Source: Sulfurivirga caldicuralii (lineage in GTDB: Bacteria; Pseudomonadota; Gammaproteobacteria; Thiomicrospirales; Thiomicrospiraceae). Taken from it: 14,477 nucleotides of DNA. The DNA lies in assembly GCA_015661715.1 (NCBI GenBank), contig DQVN01000153.1, forward strand, positions 1-14,477, in the 5' to 3' direction. Position numbers and translations under genes: made by a program. The notes beneath the pieces are model-generated. The model saw only the letters and a program-made list of their open reading frames with translations, was not told where the DNA came from and made no database searches. Position 1 is the first letter of the stretch, and each line of letters starts with the position of its first letter. Positions 6,397 to 7,320 of the stretch are shown here, one piece after another.

Positions 6397-6426
6397 TGGA
6401 CAGTTAACAGACAAGGGGGTTATAAT
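6397..6426 (+). promoter_or_regulatory. Candidate promoter reading toward the CRISPR-like array
   Basis: TGGACA (6397-6402) and a perfect TATAAT (6421-6426) are 18 bases apart. Additional TTGAC hexamers that could act as -35 elements stand at 6295, 6338 and 6436. A GCTCTTTAAAAAA stretch at 6492-6504 resembles the boxA region of rRNA leaders. No gene follows until the repeat array at 6646, so the likely product is the array transcript. Confidence 0.5.
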
Positions 6427-6542
6427 GCAAAAAACTTGACCCGGCAATGCAAGGTGAAGTGATCGCCTTTGTCGTTGCAGGATCAAGCAGCGCTCTTTAA
6501 AAAATAGATTTTTATCTATATTTTTGGGAGTTTTCTATAGAG

Positions 6543-6594
6543 CCATTTTTTAGGGGGCTCAATTGGAAAAAGGCCGTCTGGAAAAAATCTTAGG
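6543..6594 (+). repeat. Copy A of a possible dispersed AT-rich/GGCCGT element
   Basis: The order CCAT, a T run, AGGGGGC, an A run, GGCCGT, GGAAAAAATCTTAGG is shared in the same order with 10557-10604 inside the first vWA gene (CCATG, T run, AGGGGC, A run, CGGCCGT, GAAAATTTTAGG). The match is by eye, with gaps, so homology is only suggested. Confidence 0.35.
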
Positions 6595-6610
6595 TTTAAT
6601 ACCTAAGTTG

Positions 6611-6640
6611 TTGAAAGTGCTGAGGAAACAGAGTTATACA
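6611..6640 (+). promoter_or_regulatory. Candidate promoter directly before the first repeat
   Basis: TTGAAA (6611-6616) and TATACA (6635-6640) are 18 bases apart, which places the predicted start at about the first base of repeat 1. The -10 element is also part of TTATACACA (6634-6642), a perfect DnaA-box consensus. Confidence 0.45.
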
Positions 6641-6645
6641 CAGCC

Positions 6646-7037
6646 CTTTGACACCTAACCTCGCAGATAGAGGGTTAAGACCGATCTAGCGCAGCTATAT
6701 TTTGAACCTGTGTACCCACTTTGACACCTAACCTCGCAGATAGAGGGTTAAGACCGAGCACTTCATCAGTGTTGACAAAGGTGTTGTTTCCTTTGACACC
6801 TAACCTCGCAGATAGAGGGTTAAGACAAGCCAGCTATGCAATACGCCTCTGTGACCGACTTTGACACCTAACCTCGCAGATAGAGGGTTAAGACCCATAG
6901 CTTTTTCTCCTTTGTTGGTCAACAGTCTAGCTTTGACACCTAACCTCGCAGATAGAGGGTTAAGACATTTTTTGGGTCATCTCCTCGTAAAGCTCCCGAG
7001 CCTTTGACACCTAACCTCGCAGATAGGGGGTTTTAAA
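6646..7037 (+). CRISPR. CRISPR-like array, 6 repeats and 5 spacers, no cas genes nearby
   Basis: Five identical 36-base repeats (6646-6681, 6719-6754, 6791-6826, 6859-6894, 6931-6966) begin CTTTGACACC and end GGGTTAAGAC. A sixth (7002-7037) matches for 25 bases and then diverges. The five spacers are 37, 36, 32, 36 and 35 bases long and unlike one another. Each repeat can fold as CCTC-GCAGATA-GAGG, leaving an 8-base 3' tail GTTAAGAC, which fits Cas6-type processing in class 1 systems. Spacer lengths of 32-37 fit type I or III better than types II, V or VI. The AT-rich leader on the left and the degenerate last repeat on the right both indicate plus-strand transcription. No cas gene is present in this window, so the subtype cannot be fixed. 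Confidence 0.88.
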
Positions 7038-7068
7038 AAAGCCCAGCCAGTTTTGGCTGGGCTTTTTT
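7035..7068 (+). terminator. Intrinsic terminator closing the array
   Basis: GCCCAGCCA (7041-7049) and TGGCTGGGC (7054-7062) form a perfect 9-bp stem with loop GTTT, flanked by six A (7035-7040) and six T (7063-7068). It should work in both directions. It begins where the last repeat loses its normal end. The following 252 bases to the arsR-rhodanese stop show no feature that could be recognised. Confidence 0.92.
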
Positions 7069-7320
7069 GTTTTTATCGATTGGAAAAACACGGTTATGCC
7101 ATCCACCGATCATGCCGCAAGCTTATCCCGCGCTGAGCTTGTCAGATATTAATGCTTAATGCGTGCTTTCAGCCTATATTGCGGAGAGGGCTGAGAAACG
7201 GAAAAGTAATTGTGCCGCGCTAATCCATGATCTGGCTGTAGGCGCTTTAAGGATGAAGTGGAGGAATAGACCAGGCGGGTGGCCCATCGGTGTCTGTCAC
7301 GGGTGGATAATCGGCCCTGT

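Follow-up and report, generated by a model that had tools for sequence, protein, structure and literature searches.

A cas-distant CRISPR array in Sulfurivirga caldicuralii matches an array beside type III-B genes in repeat, leader and terminator

The stretch of DNA analyzed here (hereafter, the window) comprises 14,477 nucleotides of one contig, C12, of the S. caldicuralii genome assembly (1.51 Mb in 163 contigs, 95.73% complete). At positions 6646-7037, it contains a CRISPR array that consists of five identical 36-nt repeats, a degenerate sixth copy and five unrelated spacers. On one side, the array is flanked by genes for an MltC-like transglycosylase and a methyltransferase, and on the other by an ArsR-rhodanese gene and a MoxR/DUF58/vWA cluster. 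Ten proteins encoded in the window were scanned, and these comprised MoxR-, methyltransferase-, DUF4010- and MltC-like, ArsR-rhodanese, DUF58 and vWA proteins. An earlier note, made from the window sequence, had stated that there are no cas genes in reach of the array; this holds for the ten proteins scanned but not for the genome, which carries a cas locus on contig C60. The array and its associated elements are as follows:

6397..6426, + strand, sigma-70-like promoter match (TGGACA-18-TATAAT), a candidate, upstream of the common leader
6494..6645, + strand, leader of the array; the three other arrays of the genome have homologous leaders
6646..6681, + strand, repeat 1, exact copy
6682..6718, + strand, spacer 1 (37 nt)
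6719..6754, + strand, repeat 2, exact copy
6755..6790, + strand, spacer 2 (36 nt)
6791..6826, + strand, repeat 3, exact copy
6827..6858, + strand, spacer 3 (32 nt)
6859..6894, + strand, repeat 4, exact copy
6895..6930, + strand, spacer 4 (36 nt)
6931..6966, + strand, repeat 5, exact copy
6967..7001, + strand, spacer 5 (35 nt)
7002..7037, + strand, degenerate terminal repeat with altered 8-nt handle
7034..7069, + strand, intrinsic terminator at the end of the array, containing a perfect 15-bp inverted repeat

The five exact repeats, which start at positions 6646, 6719, 6791, 6859 and 6931, are all identical over 36 nt, and in the sixth copy (7002-7037) 5 of 36 positions are changed, all within its 3′ third. 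The spacers are, in order, 37, 36, 32, 36 and 35 nt long. The earlier note had described five perfect repeats, one degenerate copy and five unique spacers, and this description stands. Since exact direct repeats outside the array reach no more than 14 nt in the window, a chance origin of the 36-nt repeats is excluded. Identical direct repeats are thus combined with unique spacers of similar lengths, and an AT-rich leader, homologous to that of a cas-adjacent array, is found at one side, as is characteristic of CRISPR. No match to Rfam families was found in the window at gathering thresholds.

The genome was searched with a 24-nt core of the repeat, allowing up to three mismatches. This search yielded 38 copies in four arrays, with 6 copies in the window array, 15 on C60, 12 on C66 and 5 on C16; a backward control pattern of the same core produced no matches in the genome. 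The window repeat differs from the C60 repeat by one base of the loop (G or T). The array on C60 contains 14 spacers, as opposed to five in the window array. Together, the four arrays have 33 short spacers, which all differ, the longest run shared by any pair being no more than 10 nt; the refuting case named in the earlier note, in which the spacers are copies of each other, was thus not borne out.

Cas1 is encoded at two sites of the genome, on C60 and C162. The gene order on C60, all on one strand, is a VVA1548-family gene, an NE0113-family gene, cmr1, cas10, cmr3, cmr4, cmr5, cmr6, a TIGR02221-family gene (which we take to be Csx1-like), cas6, cas2, cas2 and cas1, followed, 172 nt from the end of cas1, by the array. 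A Card1-like nuclease gene is located on the opposite strand beyond the array. The Cas10/Cmr2 protein, which has both an HD motif and GGDD, scored 238 bits against an NCBIfam cut-off of 79.4. Cmr4, Cmr5, Cmr6 and both Cas2 proteins also exceeded their NCBIfam cut-offs, and Cas1, Cas2 and Cas6 exceeded those of Pfam. Cmr3 and Cas6 scored under the NCBIfam cut-offs, and Cmr1 had no NCBIfam match; PADLOC finds all three. The RxxxxH motif is present in both the TIGR02221 and the NE0113 proteins. With Cas10/Cmr2 accompanied by Cmr1 and Cmr3-Cmr6, and with Cas6 and adaptation genes beside an array, the C60 locus is, as judged by predicted gene content, a complete type III-B locus. Its Cas6 is the single PF10040 Cas6 found in the genome. 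The second Cas1 is encoded on C162 in an I-F-like locus, where PADLOC detects Cas3f and Cas7f and where the array has another repeat, of 28 nt.

The repeat of the window array, which had been regarded as being of an unassigned type, is therefore assignable, since it is one loop base away from the repeat of an array that adjoins III-B genes. A genome-wide check for cas1, cas6, effector genes and arrays with the same repeat, which had been recommended, led to the C60 locus and to the four arrays. The suggestion that the array is maintained by cas genes elsewhere in the genome agrees with the same repeat type and a homologous leader at the III-B locus, a match that points to such maintenance at the level of sequence.

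Two different cas2 genes adjoin cas1 on C60 (L031 15279-15934). Two separate Cas2-matching stretches are also present at 6 of 15 loci that encode related Cas1 proteins (L100, L101, L102, L104, L105 and L106); no literature combining type III CRISPR with two cas2 genes was found. On C162 (L034), a 753-aa ORF without a PADLOC match adjoins Cas7f and the 28-nt-repeat array.

Among the 15 related-Cas1 loci, at least 8 also have matches to the Cmr or Cas10 proteins encoded on C60; this number is a lower bound because several of these stretches are short or are cut off where their contig ends. Arrays are present at nine of the 15. At L102, L105, L106 and L107, the last bases of the repeat are ATTAAGAC or ATTACGAC (at two loci each), which resemble the GTTAAGAC end of the window repeat; the repeats at the other five (L109, L111, L112, L113 and L114) end in neither. 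Because the direction of these repeats was taken from that very end, the likeness at four of nine arrays lends weak support. The repeat pattern had no match in genome_contigs, and of the 31 stretches of genome_contigs that matched a Cas1 pattern, none was confirmed as a Cas1 relative.

Closer relatives were also compared. With up to three mismatches allowed, a search of 61 other genomes of the family did not find the repeat, and the three other genomes of the genus showed neither the repeat nor Cas1 nor a match to the C60 Cmr4. At the site that corresponds to that of the window array, one of them (G003) has 174 nt between the neighboring matches, a stretch devoid of arrays and of 10-nt direct repeats, and another (G001) has a gene for a metallo-beta-lactamase-fold protein, again without an array and without any direct repeat of 12 nt; no match to the site was obtained in G002, a genome that is 84% complete. 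The presence of the array here and its absence from the site in G001 and G003 may reflect either a gain here or a loss there.

The region at 6494-6645 has a GC content of 33.6%, compared to 57.4% for the window, and its homology to the other leaders, over ca. 150 nt, is common to all four arrays of the genome; the AT-rich leader of the earlier note is thereby confirmed. When the 165 nt preceding the first repeat were aligned, the window shared 157 of the 159 aligned bases with C66 (12 gap columns), 126 of 160 with C60 (10 gap columns) and 126 of 160 with C16 (10 gap columns). The similarity to C66 extends to position 6455, where contig C66 ends; the similarity to C60 and C16 starts near 6494. 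Compared to the C66 leader, the window leader has a 5-nt deletion and, beside the first repeat, an ATCCAC-to-ATACAC substitution, and adaptation at the window array may therefore be reduced. The sigma-70-like promoter match upstream of the common leader is a weak candidate, since one such pattern was found with 0.7 expected from shuffled sequences.

The terminator at 7034-7069, which the earlier note had also recognized, has homologues in the hairpins in which the three other arrays end. Apart from itself and its own inverted copy, the window terminator matches only these three array ends in the genome; when the loop length was fixed at exactly that of the window, the window was the sole match. 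The last repeat of the window array has lost its handle and continues into the terminator. Such a loss is not general in the genome, because the last repeat of the C60 array keeps its handle. The altered handle and the terminator could together prevent the production of a useless last guide. In type II-C systems, repeat mutations and terminators counter extra guides in another arrangement (PMC12080349). The combination of an altered last handle and a common terminator presents a small test case of how type III arrays may avoid a useless last guide.

The C66 array is broken by 2054 nt between two repeats (L032 10081-12134, − strand). An open frame of 414 residues starts immediately after a repeat, and another ORF, of 199 aa, is also present; Pfam matched neither this latter ORF nor the ATG-started part (376 aa) of the first. 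A protein search with the first ORF, in which the 8000 best candidates were scored, returned one entry, 100% identical, on two contigs, and there was no match in viral contigs and no second copy in the own genome. The 2-kb segment may be genuinely inserted, or the assembly may have been joined there through spacers. Downstream of their terminators, C16 (L033) and C66 (L032) are near-identical for as far as contig C16 extends. The C66 array has the appearance of a mosaic, with a leader resembling that of the window and downstream DNA resembling that of C16, as could result from recombination, strain mixture or assembly.

The end of the leader (6627-6645 in the window) contains GTTATACACAG in the window and GTTATCCACAG in C60, C66 and C16, both of which fit the DnaA-box consensus TTWTNCACA. 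A role of a DnaA box at the leader end was considered and rejected. The motif was found in none of the flanks of ten other arrays, i.e., nine that adjoin related Cas1 genes and the 28-nt-repeat array of the genome itself, as scanned over 200 nt on each side, either of which may hold the leader, or over less at stretch ends (0 on one side of L106). The four leaders, being paralogues, count as one event, and the motif occurs 10 times in five stretches of the genome (69.5 kb). Among the titles and abstract beginnings consulted, none named a link between DnaA boxes and CRISPR leaders. One can imagine that leader, repeats and terminator travel as one cassette by a dedicated copying route, possibly involving a host protein at the DnaA-box-like motif; the idea stems from the occurrence of homologous leaders and terminators on four contigs, with unshared spacers, and from a site that is array-free in two relatives. 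We consider it improbable, and the plain account of four arrays on four contigs is duplication followed by spacer turnover.

Targets of the spacers were sought in several collections. Exact 21-23-nt inner pieces of the window spacers were absent from viral contigs (none of five), as was the whole repeat. When the array was compared together with its terminator, 53 phage and 27 plasmid records were returned, and all of the best 20 listed for phages and 19 of the best 20 listed for plasmids fall on the terminator. The search was therefore redone with the repeats and spacers at 6682-7001, without the terminator, and with every match listed. Three phage records were obtained, two of them from one phage (27 nt of spacer 4, 92.6%, E 0.3) and the third covering 23 nt of spacer 2 (E 4), as well as two plasmid records (E 1 each), one of which spans a spacer-repeat border. 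Thus, viral contigs, phages and plasmids contained no convincing target for the five window spacers (E 0.3 to 4). For the C60 array, the best E value against phages was 0.3, and for the leader-side part of the C66 array it was 0.2. Little-sampled organisms commonly yield no convincing spacer targets. Within the own genome, the window spacers had no match better than E 2.9, and searches with the arrays gave, outside the arrays, short weak matches only. For the last C60 spacer (L031 17962-17985), 24 nt match C85:26615-26638 (92%, E 0.03); as a self-match this is borderline, and it may be due to chance.

The window array and the III-B locus are located on different contigs of the 163-contig assembly. 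The correspondence of repeat, leader and terminator between the window and C60 arrays is evident from the alignments; the expression and processing of the window array and the targets of its guides are inferred. Very probably, the array belongs to the III-B system of the genome, with transcription from the leader, cutting by Cas6, loading of Cmr and extension by Cas1-Cas2 in trans. As its anatomy suggests, the leader would drive transcription through the array to the terminator. The III-B Cas6 would cut the repeat at the base of the CCTC/GAGG stem and leave an 8-nt GTTAAGAC 5′ handle, which is consistent with the presence of cas6 in the C60 locus. The hairpin from which Cas6-type processing had been proposed is itself weak: it has 4 bp, and 41 of 200 shuffled sequences fold as well as the repeat, so the folding energy of the repeat is not better than chance. 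Guides processed from 6646-7001 would begin with GUUAAGAC and enter the Cmr complex, which would recognize complementary foreign RNA. In the Cmr pathway, the GGDD palm of Cas10 makes cyclic oligoadenylate for CARF effectors, and the Cas10 GGDD palm of C60 would supply it to the CARF effectors of the locus. The same Cas1-Cas2 would insert new spacers at the leader end, in trans.

The array may also be a retired archive, a sub-case of the III-B assignment in which it still belongs to III-B, but spacer gain has stopped because the leader is slightly damaged. The 5-nt leader deletion and the ATCCAC-to-ATACAC change adjoining the first repeat are in line with this, as are the five spacers compared to 14 at the cas locus. 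However, all five full repeats are identical, the leader otherwise matches that of C66 at 157 of 159 positions and, according to PMC12814883, acquisition rates are comparable for identical-repeat arrays at any distance; we therefore regard retirement as unlikely, though worth keeping in mind.

Explanations that dispense with CRISPR immunity fare far worse. A cas-independent regulatory RNA or other non-immune repeat locus, an alternative raised in the earlier note, would account for the separation from cas genes, and nothing further was found in its favor, while the repeat type, leader and terminator are common with a cas-adjacent array, and the spacers are unrelated and match their own genome no better than E 2.9. 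We consider it highly improbable. The chance that the locus is a structural tandem repeat and a false CRISPR is slighter still: the spacers have at most 10 nt in common, and this reading is contradicted by the cas locus and by a second array with the same repeat type and unlike spacers. Conserved repeat units in related genomes, which would have spoken for such a structure, did not turn up, as the repeat was found in no other genome of the 61 from the family that were searched.

The window array is a genuine CRISPR array and, most likely, an ordinary memory bank at a distance from its cas genes. That it is of an already known kind follows from the fact that cas-distant arrays, including those of III-B systems, are well documented in PMC12814883, which also describes closeness to cas genes as less important for III-B. 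Like the distant arrays surveyed there, the window array has a repeat that is nearly that of a cas-adjacent array; there is no essential difference, and in our case the terminator is also common between arrays. PMC5294841 puts at 28% the share of type III cas loci that are isolated, in genomes that either have no CRISPRs or have them at a distance. Pyrococcus furiosus, with three Cas modules and seven arrays, is a related case, and an 8-nt handle is known for type III guides (both from PMC3890593). S. caldicuralii resembles P. furiosus in that its genome carries several arrays and encodes a Cmr effector as well as a Cas6 of the 8-nt-handle kind; it differs in that cas1 and two cas2 genes are part of the III-B locus itself and in that the second, I-F-like locus has another repeat.

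A seemingly isolated array can thus be assigned through a genome-wide search for its repeat, leader and terminator. For S. caldicuralii, the assignment adds five likely guides to the III-B repertoire of the genome; its wider interest is small.
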